Assembly: GCA_013298595.1 (NCBI GenBank)
Contig: JAAFIG010000026.1
Coordinates: forward strand, 44,681 to 68,638
DNA from: Deinococcales bacterium
GTDB lineage: Bacteria > Deinococcota > Deinococci > Deinococcales > JAAFIG01
Reading direction: 5' to 3'
DNA length: 23,958 bases
In this document: positions 1 through 23,906 of the stretch, piece after piece
Layout: every line of letters starts with the position of its first letter
How positions within the stretch are numbered: position 1 is the first letter of the stretch
Made by a program: the position numbers and the translations under genes
Notes under the pieces: model-generated
What the model saw: only the letters and a program-made list of their open reading frames with translations
Databases searched by the model: none
Told to the model about the DNA's origin: nothing

Positions 1-3000
1 CCGCAAACTCAAATTATGATCAAGTATACCTGTCGCTGAAATGACCATCGGATTGTCAGAAAATCCGTTTTGTAGCAATCCAGCGGTGTTAAAAACGCCA
101 CCAGGGATGTAAACAGCATCAGCTGAATCAAGCAAGATTTTTGGTGAAATACCACCAAGTGTATTGACTGATTTCGTCCAACGCACTGACCCTTCGGTAC
201 GATCGCCAATCGTCAGGTTTAATTCTTGATTGACAAGCTGCTGTGCGACCATAGGAATTTGAATCTGTCGATTGGTTGATTCTAAACCATTGGTGGCAAT
301 AACCGTAAATTGCCCTGCTGCTATTGACTGTCTAAACGACATCAAGGCACTGTACGTTCCATCGGCACCTGTCAACACTCGGACATCGGGATAATTGGGG
401 GTTTGTATTGTCACCGCTGCGTTTGCGATAACTTGACCATTGCCATCTTGAACCACACCGAATAGTTTTACTGTGGTCAGCGGCATAACGAGGTTTTGGG
501 TGATTTCTGTGATGTCACCATTGGTTCCTGAGGCAACGGTAGCGTTTAATGTAGATTCGTTGATTTCATAAGCGGACCACTTTTTGCTGGCGGTATACTT
601 AAATTCAAGTACCGTTGCAGGTATGACTGGAGTGACACATAAATAGTTACCATTGAGATCCGTAGTCGTGCGGCACATCAAACGGTTGTTGGTATCACGA
701 ATTTCAACACTGTACCCAACAAGTTTTTCGGCAGCACTAAACTGGTTACTCAGACTGCCAGCTAACTGCAGTGTTCGCCCTAGCGGTGCCGCTTGAGGTT
801 TGGTTCGGTTGGAGTTGGCTTGATTCGCCCCTTTACGACTCCAACCATTAGCTAGTCCTGTTGAAGAAGTATTAATCGCAACTAAGGTATTCCTACCAAC
901 GACAGCAAGCAATAATCCTTGGGTGACACTTGGTACAGGTATGATCTGTGCATCTCCAGCTGTTCGCCACGCTTCAACACCTGAAGCTAAATACGCACGT
1001 ATCTGATTTGGGTGGAGTGCATAGAGAATATCGTCGGCACCAACAGCTAACCCTGTTGCGGGTGTGTTAAAGGTTTTTAAGGTATCGTTACTGCCAATCT
1101 GCACAATTTGATCATTGGTGGTAACGATCACTCTACCATCGTCTAATGCCAGCAAGCCCGCGTTGGAAGCAGCAGCGACGCTCTTTGATCGTGCGACATC
1201 ACCAAATCTATCGAGCCACACGATAACGCCTTCGGCTTGACCAGCAGTCATAAACACAGGGAACCCTGTCGAGGCGATAACAAATTGTTGACCAACACCG
1301 TCTCGAGTCCAGCGTAAGAATCCGCTGGCATTGACAGCTCTTAACATGCCAAATGAATTAAGGGCATATAAGGTCTCGTCGCCACCCACAGCTATTTGTA
1401 TTGGAGCATCAGTCGTAGCAAACTTCCAACGCAATGAGCCGCTGGTTTCAAGGACTGAAATCGCATCACGGCTGGCGATAACAAGCCGCTGAGCATGATC
1501 CAAAGCAATTGGAGCAGTGATACCAGTTGCTGCTGTGTAGCGCCACTTCTCTATGCCATTTGGTGCGTAAGCCACAACCGAACTACCAATAGCGAGATAG
1601 ATGGTTCCATCAGTGGCGATTGTCGGTGAGAAACTTGACGGAGCAGTCAGATCGATGGTCAAGCCAATTTGTCCATCAGGGTTAACTTCAACCAGCTTAG
1701 CTGTTGTTGTGCTGACATAAGTTTTTCCATTGCTATGGGTGACAGGAGCGCCAATCACATCACCAGGTAGTGTAGTTCGCCAACGTGTCATTCCTAAAGC
1801 CAAGCGGTTCAGAATAATTTTTGGTGCAGCCCGATTTAACACTTTCGGTGTCAGTACTTGTTCAAATGGTGTTGTTATCACCGCGACTCCGTCGCTCACT
1901 TCGATGGCTAACGTCACTCGAGTATTAGTCGGAACAAAGCGGTATACACCTTTGAAGTTGCCTTGTGCATCCGTAGTTAAAATATCAGTAACTTGACCAG
2001 TGATTGACACTCTGGCATTGGCAAGTGGTTTTTGCTCGTTATCGAGTGCTTGACCAAGCAGTTCTAACGTTGTTACAGCAATCGAAAGGTCTTGGTTGAC
2101 GACTGTTACTGCACTATCGAGCCCAGCCGCCACAGTCGTTGGGTAAATCAAATCTCCATAAAGACCAGTAAATTCAAGTTGTAAATCAGTCGCTGGCAAA
2201 GTCGCTGGTGCTTCGCATGCGTAGTTACCAAGTGCATCGGTGACACCGTTACAAAATAACGTGCCATTGACTCTGGTGATTTGAAACGTGTAATTTTCAA
2301 TTGGTTGACCAACAACACTCGCATTGGTCAGTGTCCCAGTCACTTTGATGCGACGAGTCGCATCTGTGCTAAAGGTACTGACACCGTGATTACTGATATT
2401 GGCGTATTTTTGAATCCAAGCGCCGCTAGCTGGCGCGGTTGACGTTGAATTAATGGCATACAATTTGTCGCCGCCTGCGTATACTGTACCGTCCACGCCC
2501 ATACTGATTTCGCGCACAGGTGCAGGACTGGAAAAACGCCAAGCTTCCGTGCCATCAGGCTGGTAAGCAATGACCAACCCTAATGCTGGCGCGCCACTTT
2601 GATCATTTTTTATTGCTGCCACATACAACAGACCATCGTTACCTAAAGTCATTGTCTGGAAAAACACGCCATTGGCAGCAGTGGTTTGCCAACGCACTGA
2701 ACCATCTGTCCGAATCGAAGACACCTGATTTGGATTCATGGCAAACACTTGTCCAACATCACCTATTACCACTTGCGACGCCACAAAACTCGATTTCCAA
2801 AGCGGTTTTAAATCAGCCGATACAACATCTAAACCAGTACCTGAAGGCAAATACAACTCACCGTTGTGACCAATTGCCATTGCAGCATTTCTCTCAACAT
2901 TCCAACGTTTTGTTCCATCAGGGTTGTACGCCTGTAACTCTTGCCCCACACGCACCAGTAGCGAATTATCAGGTAAGACTTTCAGATCACCAACACCAAC

Positions 3001-6000
3001 CATACCAAGCTCAAGACTTCTTTGCATAACACCACTTGTGTTTAACATGATCAACAAATTGGCTTGATCGGTGGCACTGGAAGCACTTAAAACCGCAATG
3101 CCATCTCGAGTTCTGGCTAAGGTGCCATCCGCTCGTCGGTTGACATCAAACACATACCGCCAACGGATTGAAGCATCTGGACGTACGGCGATCAATTCGC
3201 CTGCGTGGGTGACATAAATTGTTCCATCCACACCAACCATCGGCGCCGTGTGCTTGGTATCAGTCAGTATCGTATTTCCTAAAGTCATTTCCCAACGAGG
3301 ACTTCCATCAATTGCAATCGCATGTAGACGAATAACACCGTTGGCATTGCCGATGTAATACAAGGTTCCATCGGCACTGATTGCAGGGGCAGCCATAAAC
3401 GGTGCGCCTGTCAGATTCGCCCAACGGGCAGTGCCGGGAGTCCGTGTTTCTAAACGTAAATCGGCTTTGACTTCTGTCACAACATTGGCTGTTGCAGTTA
3501 CACCAAGTGTTTTCACAGCCACATTGTTTGCTGTATCTCGAGCTTGCCATAAAACACTGACTTGACTATTGGCAGGTGCTACAGCGTAGCCCGTGTATAT
3601 CCCAGTGATATTATCGGCGTCTAATTCCAATGGCGATGTTCCGATGCCACTGATTTTCAATTTGCCTCGGTAAGGTGCACCATTGGTGGCGGTATCAATG
3701 AGTTTTCCTGTAAACTTCACGGTGGTTGCGGCTAAGCTAAGATCTTGACGGGACTCACTGATGTTGTATGCGTGTCCTGTTGGAATGACAGCGGTTTGTG
3801 TCGCACTACCCCAGAACCCTTCTACTGTGAACACAACGTTCACAGGTCCACTTGTGGTGACTCTGCCAAAACAAGTGAATTTACCGTCAGCACCAGCCAA
3901 GGCTCGACATAACTCCGAACCATCTAACAACTTAGCGCCAATCACGCCAGGTAAGGTCATGTCTGGTACATAGCTGTTTGTGATCACACCAGCGATTTGC
4001 ACGGGTCGTGCCACCAAGAGATCAACATTTAACAATTGATATTGACCAGATTGAACATTTTGAATATCAATAAGATTTTTGCCTTCAGCTTGAAAGTAAC
4101 GAGCAAACACGTCCAGTCTGGCTCGCGGTGCATTGGGCTTTAAAACCAAAACTAAGCGGTACTCACCACGTATACCCGTTTGGTACTCAACCGTACTTAC
4201 AGTTGATAAAAAGCCTGTATCGCCTAGCAGTGACACTGTACCACCTGACACTTGGACATCACCAGTATCACGCACCCGTCCTTTGACTTCAATCGTTGTT
4301 GGCAAACCCTCAATATCTTGGGTGATGGTATTTGCTTTACCTTCTGGCACAGTCATCGTCGGCGTTGAACTCACACCCCAGTCACCAGTCAACGTATGAG
4401 TGACCGAGAACGCAGCTGCAGATTCGAGGACAACTGTGCAACTGTACTGCCCAGAAATTTCAACTTGTGTGGCACAAATTTCGGCACCAGAAACATGCTT
4501 AATCACCACGCGACCACGCAATGCGGCATTCTCGAGGTAGCCGTTTTTGGCTTGTCCAATAAATTTCACCACGCGACCACTCGAAATATCAATATCGGCA
4601 CTGACTGGCAATTTGGCTGTGCTTGAGGCGTTGGTGTACACCGAAGTTTTTGCGCCGTAGCCAGCGTTCACGCCATCCACTGATGCCTCAACATCAAATT
4701 GACCACTGGCATGTCCAGCTTTTAACAACAGATCAAGCGTATATGTGCCATCAGTACCTGACTTGGTGAAGTTTCTACCGTTGGTCATAAAGGTGGCGTC
4801 AAAATTATCCGAACTGTTTTGGACTACAACACTGGCACCAGCCACAGTGTTACTAAGACGGTTTTTCACCACACCAGTCACTCGCACCACGGGCGTACTG
4901 ACAACCACATCCTGCTGCACACTTGATTTTGATGCTAACAACATATTGCGTAAGGCATTGGAGGCGTCACCCCAATCACCTCGAGCTTGATAAATCACAT
5001 CGATATCGGCAAACTGCTTAATTGTAGCTGTACAGGTATACGTTCCATCTGGCACCGTCTGTGGTTTAGCATCATTGATTGTTTTCCAGACCACTTGGCC
5101 TCGACATAATTCTCCCACTTGTGGACTAGAAATAATTACTTCACCAGGTATAACCGTATTAGTAAGAGCATTTTTTAACACACCAGTAAATTCAACCGTA
5201 CGCTCACCTAAGCGTAAATTCCCATTGACGTCCTTCACAGTTGTTGTATTTGCACCAGTAAACAAGTACTCATTCCATCCATACAAACTTCCCGATGTGT
5301 TGCTACCAGCGGAGTGTAAACGTACAGCCCCAGCGGTAACACCTTCTTTTAACACGCCAACAAACTCAAAACCCTCAGAACTTAGTCCCATGCGAAAAGA
5401 AGCATCGGCTGCAAGTAAGGAATTATCGGTTAGCAATCCGGCAAATAATTTTTGTGGCACATTGGTGTTATCTACAACTTTACCTGTGATGCGCAAAACC
5501 GCTGGACTGGCTTCGATATCTTGATTAAAAGGCTCTTCTTCTTGGGTTGTTCCAGTCAATTTAGCAGGAACTTGTACTCGAGTTACTGATGTCCCCCAAT
5601 CACCTTTTATCTCAAAATCAACATCAAACGAACCAAGCGTATTGACATCTGCCACGCAAACGTAAGATCCGTCCGGAACAGGCAGTCCAACTGGAAGACT
5701 CGAATATTGATACTCACGAAAGGTCTGGTTGTTGGCAGAATACGTATTGCTAGAAGCACCGTTTTCACCTGTCGAAACATAGTTCAATTGTGAATACGGC
5801 AGGTCTCGCAACATCGAGTGCCCAAGCACTTTAGATTTACAAAGTTGCTGACCATCAGCTTTACGAATCGTTAGAACACCACCCAGTGTATGTCTTGGTA
5901 AAAAGCCATTAAGAACCTGACCAGAAAATTTAATCGAACGACTTAGCTGTAAATCTTCAGTTACTTCTCTTAAACCATTAGCGATCAAACGAACACCAGC

Positions 6001-9000
6001 TCGCTTTGCAAAGCGCAAGCCAGGAGAATTCACCGTAATGTCATAGAGCACATCTCGGTCTGCTTGAGACTTTACAAATGCGATATAAAGATCGTACAAT
6101 CCATTTTCATTAGTTGACACGGTTCGGACTTGCCCAGGAGCACGAATTTGCATTTTTGCTAGACGAACAGGTTGCCCTTCGGGATCTACGACTTTACCTT
6201 TTAAGTGTAAAGTCGTAGGTGAAACCTCGAGGTCGTTTTGTAGTGACAAAATCTCACCAGGTGTAGCGCGACGACTAAACGACACTTGAAACTGTTCACC
6301 ATCGAGTTCAAGTGTTACTTTCGGAGCACTAGCTGAACCAGGTTTTGGTGGCATGGTGCAACTAAAGTAACCAGTGGCATCTGAAGCAATCGTACAGGTA
6401 CCAAGTTCGGCGGAAACCATTTTCACAACTGAACCCAAGAACGGCACATCAGGCGCATTTTTATTTTTTACCTTACCAAAGACTTGGTAATTGCACAGGT
6501 GCCCCATAATTTGAAGTTGGGTCATACCAGCATATAAATCAAGAGCAGCTTCCTCAACACCAGCATCGCCTGAAGTACCCGAATCACATGTCCCACTCAG
6601 CAAAATGCGAGCTTGCTCGAGAAATGGTGCTAGCTCCTCTGCTGTTGGCAATTGTTTTAGGTAAACATTTTTCTTATTGTATGAGGCATAACTTCCTTCA
6701 TCGTATGTAAATTGCGATTCCGCTTCGGGTACTCGCCAAGCTTCACCCAGAACAACATCCCCTGGACTGCCTGGTACGTTGACCCCATCAGGTCCAGCGC
6801 GGTTATTGCCAGCAATACCATCAGGTGAACCCATTAAGCCAACTAATGGTGATTTTTGAGGCACTCGAGCTAAAATATTATACGCACCACCGATGTTTAA
6901 AAAGTCAATCATCGAGTCACCGAAGAAGATTTTGCCAGCACCTGTATTTGGGTCTACATCAATAGTAAAGCCTTTTTCTAGCTCCAAGAACTTATAATCT
7001 GCTGCTACACCGTCAATCCATAAATGTGGTGATTTATTGGCACGAACTTCAACAATATGACCACGGTATTTCAGTGCCAAAGCAGTGGCAATAGCAAACG
7101 GTTGACCTGGTCGTTGCAGCTCATGGCGGACCTGCAAGCGTGGTTCGGTAAATGCTGGGTCTTTAGGGCGGATGTAGTCAAATTCACCTAAAGCATGAAC
7201 ACTATTTCGTGGACCATCAAATGTGCCAATGTGTGGATCCCCTCGAACTGCTGCAATTGAATGAGAATAAGGTACCAACGGAAATTCAGGTAAACCAAGC
7301 CTACTGGGATCGCTACAAAGACCTTGTCCTGCATAGTAAAAATCGATTTGATGTTCATCTATTTGATTGGCAATATAGCCACCACCAGCAACACCCTTGG
7401 TTGTTGATGGGTATGCTATTTGTACAGTGTGTTTCCAAGTTTGCGGACCTATTAATTTCAAATCTAATTTCGCAGCTACGTAATCGAGCGTATCAACTTT
7501 ATTGGACTTAACTTTATAGTAGGTAACAGGTTTTCCTCCATCTAAGCTAATATTAATAAACTCAACGTTAGGCGCTCTAGCAACAATAATGGCTTTACCG
7601 ATATCATTACAATCGGTTTCATAATTTATCGACACATTTCTATTGAGCATTCGCACTGTATTGCCAGATGTGTTGACCAATTTTTCAATGCCACATCTAA
7701 TTCTGTATTTACCTAAGTGATTTGAAAATGGTATTGCAGGAATAAATGCACTACTCGCGTCAGGCTTGTACCATCCGATAGCGATGATTTCGGCATATCC
7801 TTTTTCACTTTGCTTTGCAAAGTCACAAATTGCTTTAGGTATAGAAAATTGAAAACCAACTGGCTGTAGTTCAACGTCATATCTATTTGTGATTTTCTGA
7901 TCTGGTAAATAATATTTTGCGCCATCTATACCAACTTTAGTATGCTTATCTGAAGGAATAAGCGGTAGCTTATATAGCGCTGTACTTCCATCTTTCCAAT
8001 CTTTAGAAAACAACTCGATACCAAGTAGCTTTGAAGGAATATAAGCCGTTTGCGGTGCTTGGGCGCCACCAAATATTTTAGATAAGTTCCCAAAAATAGG
8101 AACAATAGGCTTTTCCCATGCAATCCATGATTGTACAGTAACCAAATCGTTTTCATTTACATGAATGTCGCCAAGTGGCTTGTCAGGATTAAATCGAACT
8201 ATTGAGTAAGGTAATGATGCAATGTTGCGTCGTAGAGCAATACTGGAACTGCGCTCATTTTGACCTGAGGTGACTTTGGGATCAATACAAGTTGGCTGAC
8301 CACGAGTAGGTAACTTAGTACCAACACACTCAAGCCCATCTGCAAGCAGCGGGCGTGCAAAAATTTGAGACTCAGGAAACAAGAAATTGCCTTCAATTGT
8401 GGCATTCAATTCGGGTAATCCATTTAATCCAGGAATTGTTTTTAATTTCTTCACTATTTCAGACAAGAAGGGCACATCTGCGCTGATAGCACCATAAAAC
8501 GGTCTAAACGTAAATTGTGGGTGCGTATCTCCAACGGGATCAAATGCCGCATTATCACGAACTATGTCATATCTTCTCACAAGCTCGCCCAGAGAAGCAT
8601 GGGCAAATTGAAATTCGGGACCAATGTCTAGTGTTAAAAATTCTTGTGCAAGTGTGTCTTTAGGTAGTGGAATCTCTGGTGCATTGAGTCCAGGCAATAG
8701 ATTCATTGCTTTGATCATTTCATTGACAGGACCTAACAATCCCGATACCACCCAATCACACCACGGACACAACTTACCCTTCAATCCAGCTTGGAGTTTA
8801 AGTCCTAATTTCATGCCAAATCGGTAACTTGCATCGTAGTAAACATTTTTATCGCCTGCAGAACCAAATAAACCACCTATGGCAAAAATCTTATCTGGCA
8901 ATAAATAGTTTATGCGAGTTTCGGAAGGGTTATCAGTGATTTCAAACTTTGTTCGATCGCCGAGTTGAAAATTTGTATTCAAGGAAATCATTGCTGCAAT

Positions 9001-11574: not shown

Positions 11575-11582
11575 ATTTGAAA

Positions 11583-11587
11583 TCCTC
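11583..11587 (-). promoter_or_regulatory. Shine-Dalgarno of the giant lipoprotein gene
   Basis: GAGGA on the minus strand, 8 nt upstream of ATG 11574. It fixes that ATG as the start, and the lipoprotein signal follows directly. Confidence 0.7.
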
Positions 11588-11608
11588 AACACCAGCATCA
11601 GTTAGATG

Positions 11609-12571
11609 TTAATTTGGAAACAGATCGGGTAATATGTCTTCTGGATAGTATCCAGTTAAAGGATATTCATATTCCCACTGAAGTGTTTTTAGTTGATCAG
11701 TACAGAATTCTTTCGTAACAAAATATTTTATTCCAAGATTAAATCGATTTCTTGGCAAATACGAGAGCTCAAAGTGTTCAAATTTTTTACATAAGTGATT
11801 TATTAAATCATTATTTTTACTTTGAAATTTTTTTTCATTCCGATTAAATGTTGATTCCTTTGGCGAAATAATATAGATTTTTCTCTGCTCTGCCCCGCAG
11901 CAATTATTATCTCGCAGAAATACAATTCTATGGCGAGCAAAACTACTATCGAAAGAATTCCAATGGGTTTGAAAAATGGAATTTTCTTTAGATCGTTTAT
12001 TTAAAAATTCGATGACATTCTTTTTACTGCTGTTTGGTTTTTCTGCAAGGTTAAGAAAGTCAGAGAACTTTCCCAACATGATATTTTTTATCATTGATTT
12101 TCCATTTTTCCACGAAATCTCAACACCGTTTAAGTCTTGAATTCCACCAATACGAACTCTAAAATTATACTGAAGTAAATCAGATATAAATTTTTGATAA
12201 GCCTCGCCTCTTATAAATTTGGTCAATTTACATTTAGGTTCTTTCTCACATTCTGAAAAATCAAAACGATTTTTTTCATTAATGCTCGCCTGAATATATA
12301 AAATCATTCCTTCGTCTTTTGTGTATTCAAAAAACTGTTTTTTTACCTCTGAAGTGCAACTTGAAGGAACTCCAACGCGACCTTCAAAATACCTTCTCCC
12401 GATATATGGGTCAAAGACTAAAGCTTCATCAGCTTCAAATCTGTTACACAACGCTTCTGGCGTATTATTTCGTAGACTTGAAATATAAATATCTAAAAAA
12501 ACAATGGTAACTACGCTAAAAATAGTTAAAAAAACCCAGCTTTCTTTTACAAATTTAACAACTTTTTCCAT
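11609..12571 (-). CDS. Unrecognised membrane-anchored protein, 320 aa
   Basis: Not recognised. ATG at 12571, TAA at 11609. Residues about 10-32 (SWVFLTIFSVVTIVFLDIYI) form one hydrophobic segment, fitting an uncleaved signal anchor with the remaining ~290 residues outside the cytoplasm. The exported part has at least nine cysteines (for example CEKEPKC and NNCCGAEQ), suggesting disulfides, and is Lys/Asn/Phe-rich with no repeat. It lies 13 bp after the small lipoprotein gene and 34 bp before the giant gene, so it is probably co-transcribed. The Shine-Dalgarno is weak (TAGGT). The gene looks more AT-rich than its neighbours and has no CTCGAG site, unlike the rest of the operon, which may indicate separate origin or relaxed turnover. 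An accessory role in assembly or anchoring of the surface proteins is only a guess from position. Confidence 0.75.
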   Translation of the reverse strand: MEKVVKFVKESWVFLTIFSVVTIVFLDIYISSLRNNTPEALCNRFEADEALVFDPYIGRRYFEGRVGVPSSCTSEVKKQFFEYTKDEGMILYIQASINEKNRFDFSECEKEPKCKLTKFIRGEAYQKFISDLLQYNFRVRIGGIQDLNGVEISWKNGKSMIKNIMLGKFSDFLNLAEKPNSSKKNVIEFLNKRSKENSIFQTHWNSFDSSFARHRIVFLRDNNCCGAEQRKIYIISPKESTFNRNEKKFQSKNNDLINHLCKKFEHFELSYLPRNRFNLGIKYFVTKEFCTDQLKTLQWEYEYPLTGYYPEDILPDLFPN

Positions 12572-12584
12572 ATGTCATACCTAC

Positions 12585-13376
12585 TCATTGCTCATATTTT
12601 ACAATTGTTTTTGTACTGTTTAAATTACTCAGTCTGGTTTTTTCGCTTGTTTTTTGAGTCATCAAATTTAGAAAAGCAGCAGCATCTGATATATTTATTT
12701 GCTCACTAGGTGCGACGGTTTCAGATTCAGTATCGAAATTCGTCGCAATCACAATCGCAATATTTTGTTTTAGTTGATCGAAAGAATATCCATTTTCTCC
12801 AGTTATATATTCTAGAAACGTGCTTTTCGTAAAAATTGTTGGAGCAATTGCCGTTTCGTCAGTCGCATTACGGAGTTTAACAATAAAACCTTGAGCATCT
12901 TTTACTAAATTCCACCGTAATTGAAGCTTTGTGTTGGTGAACTCAACAATATTGGGTTGTGCAAACGGTAGAGAATCAGAAATATTTTTTATTTCAAATA
13001 CAGAAGATTGAGTAATGCCCATTACCTCCACCTGTAGTGTGTATTTACCAACTATTGGCGGAATAGTAATCTCTGGAAAGATTACCCAGTCTGAGTTGGC
13101 TGGGTATTTTCGTATAATTGCTTTATTTGCATTCCAATTCGCTGGACCCAAAATGCTAATTTTTGCCTCTGAGTTCACTTTGTGCCCTAAGGAATCCCTA
13201 AGCTGTACAAAAATTGTTGTGCCTAAGAGGGCATTAGTCGAATTTGGCTGAAGTTGGTAATTGTAGGTTCCACCTGCAGAAATAATTGAGATTTTTATTT
13301 GATTATCTTGGCACGCAGTTAGAAATAAAAAACTTAATAGTACCAATATTGAGATTTTTTTCATTGTTTTATTCAT
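12585..13376 (-). CDS. Small Ig/FnIII-like lipoprotein
   Basis: A 263-aa product from ATG 13376. The signal KKISILVLLSFLFLTACQ has lipobox LTAC, so the mature protein is lipid-anchored and begins at Cys. ATG 13376 is preferred over the in-frame TTG at 13391, because that TTG overlaps the ribosome-binding site (GGAG, 9 nt before 13376). ATG 13364 (MKKIS...) is also possible but lacks good spacing. The mature part shows two beta-rich halves: an Ig-like N-terminal region (KYTLQVEVMG near residue 115 is a typical closing strand) and a region LRWNLVKDAQGFIVKLR typical of fibronectin-III-like domains. The specific family is not recognised. It sits 97 bp after the 2168-aa gene and 13 bp before the membrane-anchored gene. 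Periplasmic or surface location is inferred; no CTCGAG sites occur in it. Confidence 0.75.
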   Translation of the reverse strand: MNKTMKKISILVLLSFLFLTACQDNQIKISIISAGGTYNYQLQPNSTNALLGTTIFVQLRDSLGHKVNSEAKISILGPANWNANKAIIRKYPANSDWVIFPEITIPPIVGKYTLQVEVMGITQSSVFEIKNISDSLPFAQPNIVEFTNTKLQLRWNLVKDAQGFIVKLRNATDETAIAPTIFTKSTFLEYITGENGYSFDQLKQNIAIVIATNFDTESETVAPSEQINISDAAAFLNLMTQKTSEKTRLSNLNSTKTIVKYEQ

Positions 13377-13385
13377 ACAGCAGTT

Positions 13386-13389
13386 CTCC
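13386..13389 (-). promoter_or_regulatory. Shine-Dalgarno deciding the start of the small lipoprotein
   Basis: GGAG on the minus strand, 9 nt before ATG 13376. It lies inside the TTGGAG that would be the alternative TTG start (13391), which argues against that longer start. Confidence 0.55.
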
Positions 13390-13473
13390 AATACTAATCT
13401 TTGCCTTGCTAAACCAGAGATACATGATGAAAGTGTTAACTTGCCTAGGCGTAATTATTGCCCATGGTATGAT

Positions 13474-16400
13474 TCATCGCCTAAATAACCCTTCGCCCAC
13501 AGCGAAGTCCAGTCGCACGTACATACCAGAGTTAAGGTACGATGTACCAAATCCAGAAGTTCCAATGAAGTTGATTCCCCCAACGATCCGCACAGCTGGT
13601 AAAACTTGGTAACTGACTTCTGGTGCAAGCATAAACGCCACGGTTGCCGTATTTGGCTGCCAGGTCACTCCACTGCATAAGCCTACTCCAACTTTTTGAT
13701 TGATGTTGTGCATTCCACACACGGTGACCTGTGCACTCAATCCTAGTTCTGAGATAGCTAAACTGCTCGAGAAGCGGATTTCCAAGTCTGGGTTGAGTTG
13801 TATGCTACTGTGTACCTCTGCTGTAACGTCTGAATTTAGACTTGGGGATAAAACGCCATTGCGGTATCCCAATTGACCCAAGACTGTGTAATTGCTACCA
13901 CGGTACGCTCCTGCAATACTAAAGCGCTCACCGTCGCCCCTTTGTGCTCGTACTACTTCGATGTTCGGTGCCAGCACTGCGTTAGGACTGATTTGAATCA
14001 TGCCTGCCAAGTTGTAAAACCCTTTGTACTGACCGTTTGTGTCTACGCTGTATTGCACTCGAGCGCCTGCTCGTAACCCGCCAATGTCCCAGTCGGTGGT
14101 GTATCTCAAACTTGTTTCCAAACTGCCTGTGAGCACACCAAAGTCGCTTAAGCGCAATTCACCACCAAATCCAAAGCTGAGTCCTTCAATTGCCCGTATC
14201 GGTGCATTGATGTTAATTCGAGCGACACCTAGTTCTCCGGGTAAGGTCGGTAACTCGTAACTCGTGCTGAAATTAACTTGGTCGATTTGTGCATCTATGC
14301 CAAATCGCGTTTGATTGCGAAGACCGTTGGCAGCATAAACTAATTGGCTTTGTAGCCACACACTTAGGTCTTTTTGGATCGCCCATTTTGCACTAAATTC
14401 TGTTTCACCAGTGGTACCGACGGACACAGGGATACGCTGGGTCAATCCAAATTCAAACTTTTGATAGGTCAGCACCGCAGACCCAACCACAAACGACCCA
14501 GTGTTGTTTTGCGAATTACTAAAGCGCCCTTGGTAACCAAGTCCTGCTTTCAGCGTACCAAAATCTACCGAAAATGCCTTAAATGCCTCAAGTTGTAGGT
14601 TCGTTTGGTATTGATTTGTTTGCTCAAACGATTGACCATATTGGGCGACGCCGATCAATTGAATATCTTCTGGAAGTAGTAAAGCCGTAACACTAAACTC
14701 GAGACGTTGCCCTGCTCGTTGGTTATTTGGGTCAATGTATCCTAGCCCAAGTGCTTGATACTTGGCTCGAGCTGTTAAAAGTGCATTCTGGTACTGCCCA
14801 CTGGCGCTGAGTCCCCAATCGCCAGACCAAGCCAGTTCTAAGCTCCCTTGGAGTTCAGGGTCTTTGTACTCGAGTGCGGTGCTGCCAAACAGCGGTTTGT
14901 CCATGCCTAAACGCATGGCGGAGACACGCACTGAGAATCCACTGCTTTGGTATTCAAGTTGGGTTCCGAGTTGCCAATCAAGATATTGTGTTTGCACAGA
15001 GCTGTTGTATTCAATAACGACGTATTGCGGATTGCCTTGGCTGTCTGTTGGGTATAGAGGCTTTTGCAATCGAATATCACCTGTGTTGTTGGTGATGTTG
15101 TAATCCAAACCACGTTGTAGTTCTTGTTCGCGCACAATGATATTGGGGTTGTCTTTAGCGCGGGTGATGATTCGTACGCGCTCGCTTTCTGGTGTCACTG
15201 GTACTTGCTCGAGTCGGTAGAAACTGGTGCCATCTCCTTGCTCACCAAATGGCTGTGTGGGTGTTTGATTGCTCAGTCGTGAACTTGGTCGTAGGGCTGC
15301 GAAACCACGAATGGTTAAGCCTGAATCGGCCACATTCCAGCGCAAACCATTGATCATCGCGTTGTAACTTGAAAGCCCATCAAGTTGCCCTGCTCGCAGT
15401 TGTCCGTATGTGACATTGTTTTGTTGCCATTCATAACGCACGTAGAATGGGTCGTCGCTGTTGGCGTTGCGGCTACCACTCGAGGCATCACCGGTTAGCA
15501 ACAAAGAATCAGTATTTTGGTTACTTTGGCGAACCATCCCGCCAAAAGCAAAACTCGAATCTTGCCAACCAGCCTGACCATTGATCGCAATAGTCAAACG
15601 TTCATCAGCATTAATCTGCCACGTTAACACACCTTGTAAACCAATCAGAGCACTAAACCCTTGGCTGGAGAGTCCAAGTTGCACTGAAGCAATACCAAAT
15701 ACTTGCCCATCAAATCGCTCCAACGGAATGACCACCAATGGAGCTTCAAGGTTAAGACGCAGCAGGATTTCAGTTGTGGGTAATTTTGACCATTGCAGCA
15801 AAGTTTGTCCATTAATCAGATTAACCACTCGAGTTTCCCATTGATCACCAAGCAGAATTTGCAACGAGACTGAATTTGAACCAACCAACTTACCTTGTGG
15901 GTCAAGAACAGCTATTTGCAAAAAGTCTTGATTGCCATCGCGCCAACTATGACCGATCACCCGCGTTGCCAAGGTGCCTAGTTCACCGCTCACTTGGTTT
16001 GTGTTAGGAACAACTCGAAAATCTACGGTATTGATCCCAAGATTGATGCGTAAAGCCCGAGTTCTTGGCTGCAATTGATCTTGTAATGCTGGGAACAACA
16101 ATTGCTGAGGTTCTAAACCCTCGACGCGGATTATTGTTGAACCAGTTTTTAACCCAGCGAAGCTGTAAAGTCCTTGACTATCGGTGATTCGGATCGCACC
16201 ATCTGTTAGCAGCACACGAATACCTTTTAAGGGCAAGTCCGTTGGGTCAAATTGACCATTCATATTTTGATCTACATAGATCCGACCAAGCAACACGGTG
16301 GATTGATTGAGAGCTTCAATCTGCACAGGTTCAGATTGAGCCGCTGCCAGTACCACCAGTGACCCCGTAGGGAGGGATGCTGAACCAGTGGCACGGACTT

Positions 16401-19400
16401 GCACTGCAGATGTGCCCCGAGCCGCTGGAGTCGCACCTAGGCGCAGGGTAAAGTTGAGTTGCTGATTTGCCTCGAGCCGATCAAAGGTGATACGGATTTG
16501 TTGGTCTGAGATCCGGGTTGCTGTCAGCGGTTTCCCATTTTGCATCACAGAATCTTTAACAAACACAAAACCGTTTGGGGCTGTCAAATCTAATGTCAAT
16601 GCCTGAATAAAAATCTCACCCGTATTTTTCAGTCGAATCTCAGCTACGGTGGTTGCTCCCACCTGCACCACAGGGCGGTCAACCTGAACTTGTACCTCAA
16701 GACGCGGTGTGACCAAGCCAATTGCTCGAGCTTGCCCACGACCATTGGCGAGTACATTCACAACTTGAGGGTCTGGACTGCTGGGCAAACTGCCTGAGGG
16801 TTCACGCACATCGACCGTGACGTTACCAGAGCGCACAGTGGCACTAAACTCTCCGCGTGCATCGGTTTGAATCAGTTGTTCATTGCCACTGGGGTCAGTA
16901 ATGTTTAAGGAGATATTGCCTAAACCCAGTTCTCCAAGATCAAGAAAACCATTGCCGTTAGAGTCAGCAAAAACTCGCCCAATAACGGTGCCAATCGGAC
17001 GCGCAACCTCAACCCGAATTTTCGCAGGTAATGAGCGCAAACCTGAGCGATCCGCAACGGTATATTGAATTTCGAGGGTACCTGTAAAACCTGTGGCTGG
17101 TGTAAAGGTGACCAAACCAGTACTCGAGGTACTAAATCGTCCCTGTGGCAAAGCTAATTGAATTTGTATGCCCGAACTAGCAGGGTCAAGATCTATCGAA
17201 TTTGGGTCAAGGTTGGCTTGCCCATTGGGGTCGGTATCATTGAGTAACACAGGAATTGCTACTGCTAACTCAAGGGCGGTCACGGCATCATCATCAACCG
17301 CCACAGGTGGGTCATTGCGAATACCTGAGACATTGATTGTGATCGTGGCTGGATTGGAAATACCGCCGTTAAAATCTGCAACCACATACTCAACACTAAC
17401 CAATCCAGAAAAACCAGTTGCAGGGGTAAAAACAACCAAACCAACTGGCGCTGTTTGAAACACACCTTGACCAACAATTTCGACGCGGGTTTGTAGACCC
17501 ACCAAAGTTGGTTCGAGATCAATACTGGCTGGGTTTATGGTTTGGGCGCCGTTGATATCTGAATCATTAAGAAGTACCGCCAACTGCACAGGTGTTTCAA
17601 CTGGAGTATTGGCAACATCAGCCGCTGCAACTGGTGGTGTATTTGGCACAGTGACACGAATCGAGGCTCGATTTGAAAGACCTTGAAAAAAGTCACTGAC
17701 TGTATAGTCAATCGTTGCAACACCAGCAAAACTACCTAGTGGATCAAACAAGACTGCACCATCGGTTCGCGTACTAAACAAACCAACCGCGGAGATTTGA
17801 CGTGATGTTTGTATCCCAGCAATATCTGGGTTTAAATCTACGGTTTCTACGTCGATGGTGGTATTCCCGTCGGGGTCAGTGTCGTTACTTAAAACATTGA
17901 CCACAACCGCAGTATTTGGCAATGTGCTGGCTAGGTCGTCTCGAGCGATTGGCACTTGGTTCAAATCTAAAGTGGTATTGATATCATCTTGGGTACTTGC
18001 AGCTGCATCATAGATAATATCTCGAGTACCATTTTGTGTTGTGCGTTGAGGATCAAGCATTTGAACCGTTAATGGACGTTGGTACATTGCCACTGGAACC
18101 GTACCATCTACTGCGACGGTGAGCGTAAATTCAACCCAACCGCCAGCAGGTAAAATAATGCCCGATGCTGCGCTCAGCACCGGAGACTGGTTGTTTCCTA
18201 GGTTCTGCAGAGCACTTGGACCAACAGCAGATTCTGTCAGACCGCCATAAGTAACCTCTGAAAACTGCTCAAGTAAAAACCCAGCCATCAAGCCAAATCC
18301 CTCACACTGAAGAACTTTGGCATTACTTGCACCAACTGCATTTTCCAGCCGAATTTTGTAACGTACTTTTCCGGGGAGATTGACTCGAGACCACAGGGCT
18401 TGGACTTGCACGGTCACATTAGGTAAAGCCGACACCAGACTTGGTATCAGGCTCGCATCAACATTGTTAAAGACAAAACCATCATCGCCTCGAGTAGGCA
18501 AGTGCGAAACAGGGATCTGACCAGTACCACCATTATTGCTTTGGTTCTCAGCCGGACTGCTTCCTCGAGATCCACCCAAGACCGTTGTGATCGCACTATT
18601 TCCACTGAGATAGATGGTACCACCACCGCCACCACCACCAGCCGCATGCACGGTATCTCCACCAAGTATTGAAGCACCACGTCCACCTTGAGCCTCAACC
18701 GTTAAACCACTCATGGTGCTGCCAATCGGCAATAAAATAACCACGCTACCGCCTGCACCGCCACCACCAACATTGCCAGCATTTCCTGGTTGACTAAGTG
18801 TCGGAGCATCCAATCCATTGGCACGAATTGTGCCTGTACCAACCACTGATCCAGCCCGTAGAAAAACAATGCCACCACCACTGCCGCCATGGGCTCGAGG
18901 TTGATTGCGGTTGGCCCCAGCACCACCACCGCCCCCTAAATAGATGCGCGTCAGATCATTGGCGATGCGTGCACCACCAAAACCGCCTTGTGAACGTGGA
19001 TGTCGTTTAAAATTAGGAATTTCAGTTGGCGACCAGTTATCGCCACCACGACCACCAGCACCGCCATTAGCGCCACCGCCACCACCAGTACCATTTGTAC
19101 CACCGCCACCTGCGTTCGCTGGAGCCCCAAAACCCGCGCTGCCTTCTGGGATTCCTTCAGTAACAAGGTCAACCAAAAAACCTACTTGGTTAATGTATCT
19201 CGGAGTTCCAGCGATGCCCTCACCTTTACCTGCATCATTGTCAAAACCTTCACCAGCATTGATACGGTACTCAATGGGTTCGCCGAAATCTCCACTGGTG
19301 CTGGTTAATTGGCGTCCTCCAGCACCACGAAACCCTAAACCACTCACATCCACAATCCCTGACATGGTCAGTTGACCAGCAGTATCAAAAGTAAGTACAC

Positions 19401-19980
19401 CACCACTCGTACCGTTCCATACGGCAGCGGTTAAACTGCTGCTGGTTGTGGCAGTTGAATACTGTGGAACACGGATGATTTGGAATCCATATTGACCTGT
19501 TTGAGAGTCCGCATTTTGCATGATATATGAGTGAACCAGTCCATTATTGCTCCCAGCACCACGGATGGTCACGGAGACATTGTTTGAACTTATGACTTCC
19601 ACAAATTCGTGTTGCCCTGATTGGATGAGTGTTGATCCATTGGCTGGATCTCCAATTACACCATCACCATATAAGTCCGCATCGGCTAACTCTAATTCAG
19701 CACCTTGCATTTGAATGATCAGCAATAAATCACCAGCAGTAATTGGCGTTATAGCACCATCCACATTGCGATTGCCTAATGTGAGCGTCCTCTCCCCTGC
19801 TGATAATGAACCCACACCTGAAAAGTAGGTATTTACTACACCAGATAATATCCCACCTACCCCATCTTTACCTGGGGTCGCACTCATTGCCATTGCTTGG
19901 GAATAGATAATTGAAATAAGCAGAAACAGCAAATTAACAAATTTGCGCACAACACATGTATTTTGAAAATGTAACAGCAT
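13474..19980 (-). CDS. Giant exported protein: Gly-rich region, cadherin-like repeats, SdrD-B/DUF11 domains, C-terminal beta-barrel-like region (2168 aa)
   Basis: ATG 19980, TGA at 13474. The signal peptide spans residues 1-31 (basic VRK, hydrophobic core, cleavage likely after QAMA). About 40-280 is beta-rich. About 281-467 is extremely Gly-rich, with GGGG blocks and strands of the type seen in Gly-rich surface proteins. About 679-991 holds three cadherin-like/tandem-95 repeats (VLSNDTDPDG, VLLNDSDING, VLLNDTDPNG). About 997-1075 is SdrD-B-like with the acidic loop DSNGNGFLDLGE; about 1091-1217 is DUF11-like; about 1229-1317 is a second SdrD-B-like segment (DQNMNGQFDPTD). From about 1448 to the end, alternating polar/hydrophobic strands with aromatic girdles, ending YVRLDFAVGEGLFRR, look like an outer-membrane beta-barrel. 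A strong AGGGAG ribosome-binding site lies 5 nt upstream. First gene of the block. Barrel identity is inferred from strand pattern; surface display of the N-terminal repeats follows if it is correct. Confidence 0.88.
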   Translation of the reverse strand: MLLHFQNTCVVRKFVNLLFLLISIIYSQAMAMSATPGKDGVGGILSGVVNTYFSGVGSLSAGERTLTLGNRNVDGAITPITAGDLLLIIQMQGAELELADADLYGDGVIGDPANGSTLIQSGQHEFVEVISSNNVSVTIRGAGSNNGLVHSYIMQNADSQTGQYGFQIIRVPQYSTATTSSSLTAAVWNGTSGGVLTFDTAGQLTMSGIVDVSGLGFRGAGGRQLTSTSGDFGEPIEYRINAGEGFDNDAGKGEGIAGTPRYINQVGFLVDLVTEGIPEGSAGFGAPANAGGGGTNGTGGGGGANGGAGGRGGDNWSPTEIPNFKRHPRSQGGFGGARIANDLTRIYLGGGGGAGANRNQPRAHGGSGGGIVFLRAGSVVGTGTIRANGLDAPTLSQPGNAGNVGGGGAGGSVVILLPIGSTMSGLTVEAQGGRGASILGGDTVHAAGGGGGGGTIYLSGNSAITTVLGGSRGSSPAENQSNNGGTGQIPVSHLPTRGDDGFVFNNVDASLIPSLVSALPNVTVQVQALWSRVNLPGKVRYKIRLENAVGASNAKVLQCEGFGLMAGFLLEQFSEVTYGGLTESAVGPSALQNLGNNQSPVLSAASGIILPAGGWVEFTLTVAVDGTVPVAMYQRPLTVQMLDPQRTTQNGTRDIIYDAAASTQDDINTTLDLNQVPIARDDLASTLPNTAVVVNVLSNDTDPDGNTTIDVETVDLNPDIAGIQTSRQISAVGLFSTRTDGAVLFDPLGSFAGVATIDYTVSDFFQGLSNRASIRVTVPNTPPVAAADVANTPVETPVQLAVLLNDSDINGAQTINPASIDLEPTLVGLQTRVEIVGQGVFQTAPVGLVVFTPATGFSGLVSVEYVVADFNGGISNPATITINVSGIRNDPPVAVDDDAVTALELAVAIPVLLNDTDPNGQANLDPNSIDLDPASSGIQIQLALPQGRFSTSSTGLVTFTPATGFTGTLEIQYTVADRSGLRSLPAKIRVEVARPIGTVIGRVFADSNGNGFLDLGELGLGNISLNITDPSGNEQLIQTDARGEFSATVRSGNVTVDVREPSGSLPSSPDPQVVNVLANGRGQARAIGLVTPRLEVQVQVDRPVVQVGATTVAEIRLKNTGEIFIQALTLDLTAPNGFVFVKDSVMQNGKPLTATRISDQQIRITFDRLEANQQLNFTLRLGATPAARGTSAVQVRATGSASLPTGSLVVLAAAQSEPVQIEALNQSTVLLGRIYVDQNMNGQFDPTDLPLKGIRVLLTDGAIRITDSQGLYSFAGLKTGSTIIRVEGLEPQQLLFPALQDQLQPRTRALRINLGINTVDFRVVPNTNQVSGELGTLATRVIGHSWRDGNQDFLQIAVLDPQGKLVGSNSVSLQILLGDQWETRVVNLINGQTLLQWSKLPTTEILLRLNLEAPLVVIPLERFDGQVFGIASVQLGLSSQGFSALIGLQGVLTWQINADERLTIAINGQAGWQDSSFAFGGMVRQSNQNTDSLLLTGDASSGSRNANSDDPFYVRYEWQQNNVTYGQLRAGQLDGLSSYNAMINGLRWNVADSGLTIRGFAALRPSSRLSNQTPTQPFGEQGDGTSFYRLEQVPVTPESERVRIITRAKDNPNIIVREQELQRGLDYNITNNTGDIRLQKPLYPTDSQGNPQYVVIEYNSSVQTQYLDWQLGTQLEYQSSGFSVRVSAMRLGMDKPLFGSTALEYKDPELQGSLELAWSGDWGLSASGQYQNALLTARAKYQALGLGYIDPNNQRAGQRLEFSVTALLLPEDIQLIGVAQYGQSFEQTNQYQTNLQLEAFKAFSVDFGTLKAGLGYQGRFSNSQNNTGSFVVGSAVLTYQKFEFGLTQRIPVSVGTTGETEFSAKWAIQKDLSVWLQSQLVYAANGLRNQTRFGIDAQIDQVNFSTSYELPTLPGELGVARININAPIRAIEGLSFGFGGELRLSDFGVLTGSLETSLRYTTDWDIGGLRAGARVQYSVDTNGQYKGFYNLAGMIQISPNAVLAPNIEVVRAQRGDGERFSIAGAYRGSNYTVLGQLGYRNGVLSPSLNSDVTAEVHSSIQLNPDLEIRFSSSLAISELGLSAQVTVCGMHNINQKVGVGLCSGVTWQPNTATVAFMLAPEVSYQVLPAVRIVGGINFIGTSGFGTSYLNSGMYVRLDFAVGEGLFRR

Positions 19981-20732: not shown

Positions 20733-20762
20733 ATTAAAGATATTAAAAAAAGAGTGTGACAA

Positions 20763-20968: not shown

Positions 20969-21033
20969 CTTATGGTTCTTCGCTTGGGATGGTCATTGGT
21001 AAATCATAAGCTAAGTGTGATTTAGGTTACTAA

Positions 21034-21762
21034 GCCGATTTTGGCAATTTACTCTACCGACAGGCTTTATTGGGCTACCAGTTCAGCCCTCGCATTCGTG
21101 ATGTCAGTTCATCACGTTACTGGCGTATCTCAAGAAAAAGCGATTATGGACAACTCAATGACATTGCCAAAAATCGTATCAATACCGCATTGTTAGCTGA
21201 CCATTGGCAAGATGTGCTGCGCTTAGTGGGAAGTCTAAAGGTCGGTGCAGTTAAAGCACCTGAAATCATGCGGATTCTGGCTCGAGATGGCAAAACCACT
21301 GGTTTAGGAAACGCCGTGGCAGAGGTTGGACGAGTTGCAAAAACACTGTACTTGTTGGATTACTTGGATGATGAAGCTTATCGAAGGCGCATCCTTGTAC
21401 AACTTAACCGTGGTGAGCAGCGTGGAAAGGTAGCTCGAGAAGTCTGTCACGGCAATAAAGGCGAACTACAACAACAGTACCGTGCTGGTATGGAAAATCA
21501 ACTTGGAGCGCTGGGATTGGTGGTCAATACAATTATCTTGTGGAACACGCTTTATTTACAAAGTGCAGTTAAGCAACTCGAGGCAATGGGTGAAGAATTA
21601 CTCGATGAGGACGTGGCTCGAGTCTCACCGCTTAGGTGGCAGCACATCAATATGTTAGGAAGGTATAACTTTGTGTTATCTCCAAGTGTTGCAGGTGGTG
21701 ACTTGCGTCCTTTGCGTGACCCGAATGCTGAAACAGACTTGGACTTCGATCTAGATTGGTAA
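21034..21762 (+). pseudogene. tnpA: Tn3-family transposase (TnpA), C-terminal fragment
   Basis: Opens after TAA 21031 and ends at TAA 21762, about 242 residues against ~1000 for a full Tn3-family TnpA. Family signatures: LLGYQFSPRIRD at the start; RILARDGKTTGLGNAVAEVG; the segment QLNRGEQR...CHGNKGELQQQYR, where the Glu at 21415-21417 is the likely third catalytic (DDE) acid; QLGALGLVVNTIILWNTLYL; and the terminal DEDVARVSPLRWQHINMLGRY. The two catalytic Asp residues and the DNA-binding N-terminal part are absent, so it cannot transpose itself. No start codon or ribosome-binding site is convincing (TTG 21070 is only the first start-like codon). The remaining frame is uninterrupted, so the truncation is not very old or the reading frame was lost only 5'. 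It carries four CTCGAG sites like native genes. A candidate right-end inverted repeat follows 15 bp after the stop. Confidence 0.85.
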
Positions 21763-21777
21763 GTGTAAGTTAGGCTA

Positions 21778-21814: not shown

Positions 21815-21957
21815 GCATAGGGGTGTGACAATCGTAGATGTGGAGAGTTTCAATTCTTTACACCTGATTGCAATAATTAAATCACAAAATAGTAATAATT
21901 GTGAATAATGTCACATGACTAAAAGCGATATTCTAAATTGACTTAATATGCAGAGAA
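21815..21957. other. AT-rich spacer between transposon end and aspS
   Basis: Contains GTGTGACAA at 21823-21831 (also at 20754-20762), a weak inverted repeat TCACAA/TTGTGA near 21880-21906, and ACTTAATATG at 21941-21950, repeated at 21966-21975 inside the aspS 3' end. No T-tailed GC hairpin was found, so the aspS terminator is not identified. Confidence 0.35.
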
Positions 21958-23748
21958 TTACCTTAACTTAATATGTAAGTTCGTCAATTGTACTTCATCT
22001 ACAGCACTTGGCGCATCTGCCATGACATCCGCACCTTTGGCATTTTTAGGAAAAGCAATCACATCCCGAATTGTTTCAACATTCGCCATCACAGCCACCA
22101 TGCGATCTAAACCCCAAGCAATACCACCATGTGGTGGCGTGCCATACTCGAGGGCTTCCATAAAAAAACCAAACCGATTGCGAGCTTCAGCAGTGCTAAA
22201 ACCAATAGCGTTAAACATTTTTTCTTGCACTTCTGGATTGTGAATACGAATACTGCCACCACCAACTTCGTAACCATTAATCACTAAATCATAGGCTCGA
22301 GCTTTCATACTGCCCATTTCAGGAGTGCCGAATTTTGCTAAATCTTCGAGTGTTGGGCTAGTAAACGGGTGGTGCATAAAAGTAAAGCGTTGATTGTCTT
22401 CATCCCATTCGAGCAATGGAAAATCCACAACCCAAGACATGTGGAATCGAGGCGAATCAGCTGTAATTAGCTGTAACTCATCACGCAAAGTCAGTCGAAC
22501 AGCTCCAAGAGCTTTTAATGTTGTGTCTTTGCTGTCGGCTCCAAATAACAAAGTTTGACCAATTATTGCACCCGTCAACTCGAGTAAACCCGTTATTTCG
22601 GTAGGGGAGAGGAACTTAGCAATACCACCCTCGAGTCCTGATGCCGTGGTTTTTGTCCACGCTAATCCTTTAGCCCCATTTTGTTTTGCCACTTGCTCGA
22701 GCGCCTCGATTTGCTTACGACTGAGTTCGGCAGGTGCTACTAAAACCCGTACGGTGCCGTTTGCCTCGAGTGCCGATTTGAAAACTGCAAAACCAGATTC
22801 CGCCAAGATACTCGAGGCATCTTGAATTTCTAAGCCAAAGCGTTGATCGGGTTTATCCGAACCAAATCGATTCAAAGCATCAGCATAAGTCAAACGTGGT
22901 AAGGGGAGAGGGATTTCCAGATTGAGCGTTTGTTTAAACACATGTTGCAATAAGCGTTCATTTAACTCGAGCACATCATCTACATCTACAAAACTCATTT
23001 CGATATCGAGTTGTGTAAAATCTGGTTGGCGATCAGCGCGTAAATCCTCATCGCGGAAACAGCGGGCAATTTGGAAATACTTATCAAAATTAGCGATCAT
23101 CAAAAGTTGCTTAAAAAGTTGAGGGCTTTGTGGCAACGCATAAAAATTCCCTGCGCTGGTACGACTCGGCACCAAATAATCTCGAGCACCTTCAGGGGTA
23201 GATTTTGTCAGCATTGGCGTTTCAACACTGATAAAACCTTCGGCATCTAAAAATTGGTAAATACTTGAGATGGTTTTTGAACGCAACTTCAGCGCTTCAC
23301 GCAGTGGTTCACGGCGTAAATCTAAGTACCGATACTTCAAACGAATCTCTTCTGAAGCAGTAACAGGTGTGCCATCCACAGGAAATGGCACGGGTTTAGC
23401 TTTGGCTAAAATTTCGAGATTACTGGGAATAATTTCAATTGCACCAGTAGCATACGCATCCGTTTTATTTTGCATCGCTCGAGCTTGCACAACACCCGTT
23501 ACCTCGAGCACAAATTCGGATTTACACAAATCGGCATTAGCAAAACATGGATTACTCGAGTCAACAGTGATTTGCACAATACCAGTGCGATCACGCAGCA
23601 CAATAAAGCGAGTATCTGGGAATTCACGGACTCGAGACACCCAGCCGTTCAGGGTGACGGTTTGACCAGTGTGGCTTTCTGAGAGATCGTTGCAGTAATG
23701 GGTTCGTTTCACAACCTGAGCATACGGCATTCTTGGTTTTGAATGCAC
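21958..23748 (-). CDS. aspS: Aspartyl-tRNA synthetase, bacterial type
   Basis: Charges tRNA-Asp with aspartate in the cytoplasm; class II, 596 aa from GTG 23748, the usual bacterial length. Domains: N-terminal OB-fold anticodon-binding domain (about 14-125, TVTLNGWVSRVREF); class II motif 1 region around 155-180; aspartate/ATP pocket QSPQLFKQ at 207-214; motif 2 RCFRDED at 229-235; the bacterial GAD insertion (about 290-420); flipping-side signature FTFMHHPFTSP; motif 3 GLDR at 546-549. The enzyme looks complete. Start is uncertain: GTG 23748 has AAAGGT just upstream but very close; ATG 23730 lacks a clear Shine-Dalgarno; homologues begin near KRTHY, residue 14. From memory the sequence is nearest to Thermus/Deinococcus AspRS. 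It carries 13 CTCGAG sites in 1.8 kb. It converges with the transposase fragment. Confidence 0.97.
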   Translation of the reverse strand: MHSKPRMPYAQVVKRTHYCNDLSESHTGQTVTLNGWVSRVREFPDTRFIVLRDRTGIVQITVDSSNPCFANADLCKSEFVLEVTGVVQARAMQNKTDAYATGAIEIIPSNLEILAKAKPVPFPVDGTPVTASEEIRLKYRYLDLRREPLREALKLRSKTISSIYQFLDAEGFISVETPMLTKSTPEGARDYLVPSRTSAGNFYALPQSPQLFKQLLMIANFDKYFQIARCFRDEDLRADRQPDFTQLDIEMSFVDVDDVLELNERLLQHVFKQTLNLEIPLPLPRLTYADALNRFGSDKPDQRFGLEIQDASSILAESGFAVFKSALEANGTVRVLVAPAELSRKQIEALEQVAKQNGAKGLAWTKTTASGLEGGIAKFLSPTEITGLLELTGAIIGQTLLFGADSKDTTLKALGAVRLTLRDELQLITADSPRFHMSWVVDFPLLEWDEDNQRFTFMHHPFTSPTLEDLAKFGTPEMGSMKARAYDLVINGYEVGGGSIRIHNPEVQEKMFNAIGFSTAEARNRFGFFMEALEYGTPPHGGIAWGLDRMVAVMANVETIRDVIAFPKNAKGADVMADAPSAVDEVQLTNLHIKLR

Positions 23749-23906
23749 TTACCTTTGGGATAACAAGTTTTGAGGGATGAAAAAGCTTACACGTTTTTGA
23801 CACTCGATAAAATCTAAGTTGTGATCAACGTAGATGAGAGTTTTATTCCCCAACATTCCCCAGTGATGTTTGATAATGCTGCCTGCTCGAGGTTGGGTCG
23901 CTCGAG

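Follow-up and report, generated by a model that had tools for sequence, protein, structure and literature searches.

The question raised by this locus is whether the palindrome CTCGAG recurs in it through chance and codon choice or as a DNA word in its own right. The window, that is, the whole stretch of 23,958 nucleotides that was analysed, belongs to a 4.58-Mb genome in 68 contigs (G000) of the order Deinococcales, not to a cyanobacterium. The initial annotation had put the word at about 48 copies, above chance, and a direct count gave exactly 48 (first at 1302, last at 23901), making CTCGAG the top-ranking 6-mer. Base composition predicts 4.3 copies and Markov models of orders 1, 2, and 3 predict 2.3, 3.8, and 10.3; even at order 3, the Poisson probability of at least 48 copies is 2e-17. 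The sites fall in the following features:

1302..11324, minus strand: large surface-type ORF (3866 aa), 12 sites (1302, 1917, 3105, 3537, 4531, 4980, 5577, 6226, 6616, 6864, 9828, 11319)
13766..18899, minus strand: 2168-aa ORF with Ig/cadherin-like domains, 17 sites (13766, 14058, 14698, 14766, 14869, 15208, 15479, 15828, 16471, 16725, 17123, 17940, 18021, 18384, 18489, 18564, 18894)
21281..21622, plus strand: Tn3-family transposase ORF (21070-21762), 4 sites (21281, 21434, 21577, 21617)
22147..23636, minus strand: aspS (21958-23748), 13 sites (22147, 22296, 22579, 22630, 22696, 22765, 22811, 22966, 23181, 23478, 23503, 23555, 23631)
23886..23906, no strand: outside long ORFs, 2 sites 15 bp apart (23886, 23901)

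The 13 copies in aspS and the two intergenic ones are as first annotated, and so is the use of all three codon phases (Leu-Glu at 23503 and 22765; Ala-Arg at 23478 and 22296; Ser/Asp-Ser/Ala-Ser contexts at 23631, 23555, and 22811). Seven aspS sites encode Leu-Glu, four are read as xCT CGA Gxx, and two as xxC TCG AGx. Near-misses in this gene are few (TTCGAG 3, CTCGAA 0, ATCGAG 2, CTCGAT 1); the earlier figure of about three TTCGAG stands, while that of one ATCGAG has to be raised to two. The aspS genes of four other high-density relatives examined contain 14 to 18 sites, that of the site-poor G004 none. A translated search with aspS places the genome in the Deinococcales, the nearest public MAGs being 88% and 78% identical.

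At 2.0 sites per kb against 5.9 genome-wide, the window actually has few copies of the word. The 3866-aa surface-type ORF is low in sites (1.0 per kb), with 12 seen against 34 expected from its protein opportunities at genome-average use, and the Tn3-family transposase ORF has the density typical of the genome in a mobile-element gene (4 seen, 4.0 expected from opportunities). Low-GC, probably foreign, genes have a low CTCGAG density, and in these genomes a scarcity of the word may point to recent gene acquisition.

CTCGAG as an exact DNA word across the genome

CTCGAG occurs 27,159 times in the whole genome (5.9 per kb; 5,927 per Mb; one per 169 bp), whereas its reversal GAGCTC occurs just 15 times. 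Relative to composition, the observed/expected ratio (O/E) is 29.8 in G000 (800-kb sample), 22.2 in G006, and 1.0 in G004. In the first 400 kb of G000, CTCGAG is the top 6-mer and the next most enriched palindrome reaches just 2.5x. Shuffling of synonymous codons left an excess of 12.6x in G000 (800 kb) and 8.4x in G006, with all three phases enriched (2257/931/717 sites against 196/86/29 expected), the codon frequencies used being themselves already inflated by the CTCGAG sites. The sites are about as dense in non-coding as in coding DNA (5.4 and 5.9 per kb, respectively, in G000; 6.4 and 6.0 in G006). Where non-coding DNA was defined strictly, four genomes together yielded 420 sites for an expectation of 14.8. 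All 20 sampled contigs of one genome were rich. Genome-wide counts near a codon-aware expectation would have refuted the reading of CTCGAG as a hyperabundant word; with 27,159 copies genome-wide and 12.6x over the shuffle in 800 kb, it was not refuted. The hyperabundance of CTCGAG thus depends neither on codon phase nor on whether the DNA is coding.

The unit is exactly the hexamer CTCGAG, with sharp specificity. The nine classes of one-base neighbours are found at 0.14-1.55x in G000 and at O/E 0.16-1.53 in strict non-coding DNA of the four genomes, and in 800 kb of G000 there are 4645 sites against 2210 for all nine neighbour classes summed. The commonest near-misses are transitions (TTCGAG, CTTGAG, and CCCGAG), as expected because decay from abundant sites should give them. 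The flanks have almost no base preference (C at +1, 1.25x). The HIP1-like behaviour proposed from the window alone, namely a phase-independent palindrome with the full word favoured over its neighbours, is therefore borne out genome-wide and in relatives. Many other palindromes are near-absent from the family f1, including GGCC (O/E 0.01-0.02), GAGCTC, CCGCGG, GGCGCC, TCGCGA, CGTACG, GACGTC, and GCGCGC, but not from the site-poor G004; CGATCG is also depleted in a CTCGAG-rich genome (O/E 0.09).

The word has left its mark on proteins. In G000, 67.7% of Leu-Glu, 62.7% of [APST]-R-[ADEGV], and 36.6% of X-S-[SR] peptides carry CTCGAG, against 10.7, 1.4, and 0.4% of the same classes in G004, and outside the sites CTC accounts for 9% of Leu codons and GAG for 20% of Glu codons. 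The word thus occupies 37-68% of the positions at which the proteins would allow it. The Leu-Glu dipeptide is found at 2.2-2.4x its expectation in each of the four f1 genomes; the ratio is 1.74 in G001 and 1.09 in G004. Since Leu-Glu is roughly doubled, the DNA word has altered amino-acid sequences, and these results show that the DNA-level force on CTCGAG outweighs most synonymous constraint and part of the constraint on amino acids. This is a clear case of a DNA word altering proteins genome-wide, which matters for analyses of codon usage, dN/dS, and homology.

Gaps between sites are close to geometric (CV 1.03; Fano factor 1.13 per kb), with repulsion at short range: the pair correlation is 0.17 at 6-10 bp, 0.38 at 11-15 bp, 0.50 at 16-20 bp, 0.76-0.88 at 21-60 bp, and 1.0 beyond. 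Control words had no comparable short-range repulsion. Regular spacing or helical phasing was rejected, spacing being random beyond 60 bp with no period except 3 and no helical or nucleosome-like one, and density did not dip at gene starts.

Distribution and maintenance among relatives

All four genomes of family f1, whose members are uncultured relatives of Deinococcus and Thermus, are rich (5.9-6.5 sites per kb), as is genus g5 of the sister family, and a weaker enrichment extends to much of the Deinococcales. The aspS tree is (G004,(G001,(G003,(f1)))) with 98-100% support, and whole-genome densities along it are 0.3 (G004), 3.6 (G001), 6.2 (G003), and 5.9-6.5 per kb (f1); G004 forms a long branch and its placement is less sure. 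In short samples (at most 20 kb each), several genomes of families f3, f4, and f5 have a codon-aware excess of 2-3x, and the Thermus-like g13 has none by this measure. A milder enrichment is present in Meiothermus-like relatives (genera g10-g12), whose identity is inferred. Viral contigs were also scanned for an abundance of CTCGAG, but the hits, mostly high-GC contigs plus a poly-Ser ORF of low complexity, were of no use.

Orthologues were compared in about 120 kb of pairwise-aligned coding DNA, in small sets (6-25 orthologues each) with genes overlapping between pairs. Between f1 genomes at 60-66% nucleotide identity, 29-53% of the sites are identical against 10-15% of same-composition control hexamers, so that CTCGAG is kept 3-4 times better, and one-off forms at orthologous sites are mostly 2-13% against 23-29% for the controls. 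From the high identity and the few one-off forms it follows that sites either stay whole or vanish entirely. Between G000 and the site-poor G004, 1.8% of CTCGAG sites are kept, under the control value of 4.9%, and protein constraint is therefore not the reason for their maintenance. Taken together, the comparisons show evolutionary maintenance and lineage-wide presence of the word, with loss or absence in one relative (G004), and hence a force active at the DNA level that acts on the complete hexamer at every location, is inherited within the lineage, and is lacking in G004.

Known words with similar behaviour

HIP1 (GCGATCGC) is found in cyanobacteria at 0.3-2.7 copies per kb (Elhai 2015, PMC4390886). 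In both cases a short palindrome reaches hyperabundance throughout the genomes of a bacterial phylum, has been lost sporadically where genomes are small, and has no obvious role as a single copy. CTCGAG differs in being a hexamer without flank preference rather than an octamer, in belonging to another phylum, in having no common methyltransferase that we could find, and in its density of 5.9 per kb, over twice the highest for HIP1 (2.7 per kb). HIP1 proper is thus not matched, the word being CTCGAG and the genome Deinococcales. Two properties of the HIP class are nevertheless fulfilled, CTCGAG being the top over-represented short palindrome at a frequency at or above the 500-2500 per Mb range in coding and non-coding DNA. 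To our knowledge, the function of HIP1 has stayed open for decades and has been treated as a cyanobacterial matter.

Alternate HIPs, such as GGCGCC in Calothrix PCC 7103, rCCGGy, and GCsGC, have also been described (PMC4390886). These too are hugely over-represented palindromes of hexamer scale, and a cognate methyltransferase has been proposed for them, but they belong to isolated strains, whereas an entire family and some of its sister family have CTCGAG in common. The O/E of GGCGCC is 15.5 in Calothrix D253, slightly below that in PCC 7103 (PMC4390886), against 22-30 for CTCGAG. HIPs and alternate HIPs are already known in cyanobacteria; CTCGAG extends HIP-type behaviour to a second phylum, Deinococcota, as an independent and stronger instance. 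We found nothing on CTCGAG in Deinococcota in the open-licence literature, to which our search was confined. With a second system that is graded along one clade, comparison becomes a way to look for the reader, and the cause is open to direct testing.

CTCGAG is also the recognition word of XhoI/PaeR7I restriction-modification systems, and related methyltransferases are present in some members of the order. Restriction-modification targets are normally avoided and not enriched, whereas CTCGAG is enriched. The XhoI-family nuclease (PF04555) was confined to G012-G014 and G108, the G108 copy having internal stops, and was not found in families f1 or f2; a XhoI system in the rich genomes is accordingly rejected, the nuclease being missing there.

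Possible causes of the enrichment

We tentatively read CTCGAG as a HIP-type word created and maintained as DNA chromosome-wide, in any gene or frame, with a methylation-linked ratchet as the favoured cause. Because the word is a perfect palindrome without flank preference, a dimeric or symmetric sequence-reading protein is inferred to recognise it, although no such protein was identified. The reader would most likely be a DNA methyltransferase activity for CTCGAG, for which there are no methylation data in these MAGs. Its methyl mark may bias repair or recombination in such a way that a strand with the complete word beats one with a near-miss, and CTCGAG would then become a genome-wide attractor up to what proteins tolerate and even past it, as in the doubling of Leu-Glu. 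A ratchet of this kind was proposed for cyanobacterial HIPs by Elhai (PMC4390886). We favour it because sites would then be placed at random over long distances, be equally dense in coding and non-coding DNA, and be present whole or not at all. Vsr-type short-patch T:G repair as the sole cause is disfavoured, transversion near-misses being depleted as much as or more than transitions. We know of no biochemical demonstration of the ratchet, even in cyanobacteria.

The pattern of TCGA also fits. In two Thermus-like genomes, TCGA outside CTCGAG has an O/E of 0.03-0.09, and CTCGAG makes up 74-91% of all TCGA; one of the two encodes an orthologue of M.TaqI, which scores 521 bits against the solved enzyme. 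TaqI would be blocked by m6A at CTCGAG, and such a modification would leave CTCGAG in place where TCGA is otherwise lost. Along with this pattern, methyltransferases of the L048 type in G024 and G007 are hints of a link to methylation. L048, from the site-rich G024, shares 49% identity with the methyltransferase that adjoins the XhoI-family nuclease gene of G108 and is itself without a recognisable nuclease gene next to it, and L046 of G007 matches the same PADLOC model; no member of this family was seen in G000. A second methyltransferase type lies beside the XhoI-family nucleases of G012-G014 and has a relative in a site-poor Thermus-like genome, and therefore methyltransferase presence alone gives no abundance.

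Five methyltransferase families (PF00145, PF01555, PF02384, PF07669, and PF02086) were searched in 12 genomes and the hits clustered. G000 has six candidates of unknown specificity, and no member of the five families is orthologous across all rich genomes, so that this search yielded no single conserved orphan methyltransferase; the tie to such an enzyme suggested in the initial annotation remains a hypothesis. Non-orthologous methyltransferases among the rich genomes are the main weakness of the ratchet. Also against it, one site per 169 bp is about six times the ceiling of roughly 1 per kb for the version in which the word supplies mismatch-repair signals. It is possible, though we hold it with more doubt than conviction, that the genomes of the family, in a phylum unrelated to cyanobacteria, have been saturated with the word by a drive at the DNA level (through biased repair, recombination, or uptake) that also remodelled the proteome, with no conserved methyltransferase and with a novel reader in Deinococcota. 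If true, what reads the word in Deinococcota would be a genome-wide, sequence-specific system of a new type.

The main rival, which predicts much the same as the ratchet but seems unlikely to us, is that CTCGAG is a preferred word in natural transformation, so that fragments with it are taken up and recombined more, as a molecular drive. Precedents are the DUS/USS of Neisseriaceae and Pasteurellaceae and the methylation-dependent RAATTY of Campylobacter. Like CTCGAG, DUS/USS are short words spread genome-wide by suspected drive in genomes that keep ComEC. Uniform coding and non-coding density, maintenance in orthologues, and low density in low-GC genes agree with uptake, and no rich genome of 90% completeness or more lacks ComEC (PF03772; present in G000, G001, G003, and G005-G007), whereas the site-poor G004 and G110 do. 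The gene is, however, present in 100 of 111 genomes, including all 27 site-poor Thermus-like genomes and G105, and missing in G100, whose CTCGAG:GAGCTC ratio is raised; being near-universal, ComEC does not discriminate. Moreover, known uptake words are longer, non-palindromic, and near 1 per kb, and repulsion on a scale of about 40 bp would require very short recombination tracts.

That repulsion is best explained by direct selection for sites of an abundant nucleoid-organising or repair protein coating the chromosome at CTCGAG, an account that we nonetheless regard as rather unlikely overall. The rise of the pair correlation from 0.17 at 6-10 bp to 1.0 beyond 60 bp, without counterpart in control words, resembles a footprint, and the strict hexamer specificity and palindromy suit a dimer. 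Spacing past 60 bp is random without helical or nucleosome-like period, there is no dip at gene starts, where tight binding should interfere, and no candidate protein was identified.

Less probable still is a self-mark for defence, in which the density of CTCGAG, perhaps methylated, tells the cell's own DNA from foreign DNA, with degradation of whatever lacks the mark. The near-absence of many other palindromes in the same family but not in G004 would agree with it, yet G001 is enriched in CTCGAG without avoiding other palindromes, XhoI-family nucleases are absent from f1 and f2, and no dedicated gene was found.

Finally, ordinary codon or composition bias, even though part of the raw excess in high-GC relatives is Leu(CTC)-Glu(GAG) codon use, and an assembly or binning artefact have next to no chance of being the cause, the former being ruled out by the codon-shuffle excess of 8-13x in f1 in all phases and the equal density in strict non-coding DNA, and the latter by four independent genomes and all 20 sampled contigs being rich.

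Depletion of palindromes other than CTCGAG

In the genome of the window (G000) and the site-rich relative G006, the observed/expected ratio of GGCC is 0.01-0.02, and GAGCTC, CCGCGG, GGCGCC, TCGCGA, CGTACG, GACGTC and GCGCGC are nearly absent family-wide, based on samples from G000 and the site-rich relatives G005, G006 and G007 (loci L025-L044, L161-L200 and L271-L290). Neither the site-poor relative G004 nor the moderately CTCGAG-rich genome G001 showed this depletion. Current restriction-modification alone seems an unlikely cause, because G000 appears to have too few DNA methyltransferases (MTases).

In the Thermus-like genomes G044 and G050, TCGA is nearly gone outside CTCGAG (L229, L230 and further loci), and 74-91% of all TCGA lies inside CTCGAG. 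G044 encodes an orthologue of the TCGA methyltransferase M.TaqI.

Candidate XhoI-type methyltransferases and a split nuclease gene

Two genes are candidates for MTases of the type of XhoI, which recognises CTCGAG:

L048 643-2331, XhoI-type MTase candidate of the site-rich genome G024
L046 1177-2907, XhoI-type MTase candidate of G007

The G024 gene itself contains 12 CTCGAG, and no recognisable nuclease gene was found adjacent to it. In G108 (L294/L295), an XhoI-family nuclease gene adjoining its methyltransferase gene is split by two in-frame stops.

Placement of CTCGAG along genes

In G006 (L181-L200), CTCGAG density climbs to ~10/kb in the 50 bp past stop codons, perhaps located in terminator hairpins; no such rise was seen in G000. 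Within the window, the following open reading frames (ORFs) were distinguished:

1-11598, giant surface-type protein (CarboxypepD_reg/beta-propeller)
11609-13391, two ORFs of 31-35% GC, zero CTCGAG, no Pfam match
13474-19980, giant surface-type protein (bacterial Ig/cadherin-like repeats)
21070-21762, Tn3-family transposase

Both giant ORFs use CTCGAG at about half or less of the level that their sequence permits at the genome-average rate. The low-GC pair is probably recently acquired DNA; it adjoins the site-poor giant ORFs. The transposase ORF carries four CTCGAG in 693 bp, a genome-typical density, by which it would be long resident or swapped among site-rich genomes.
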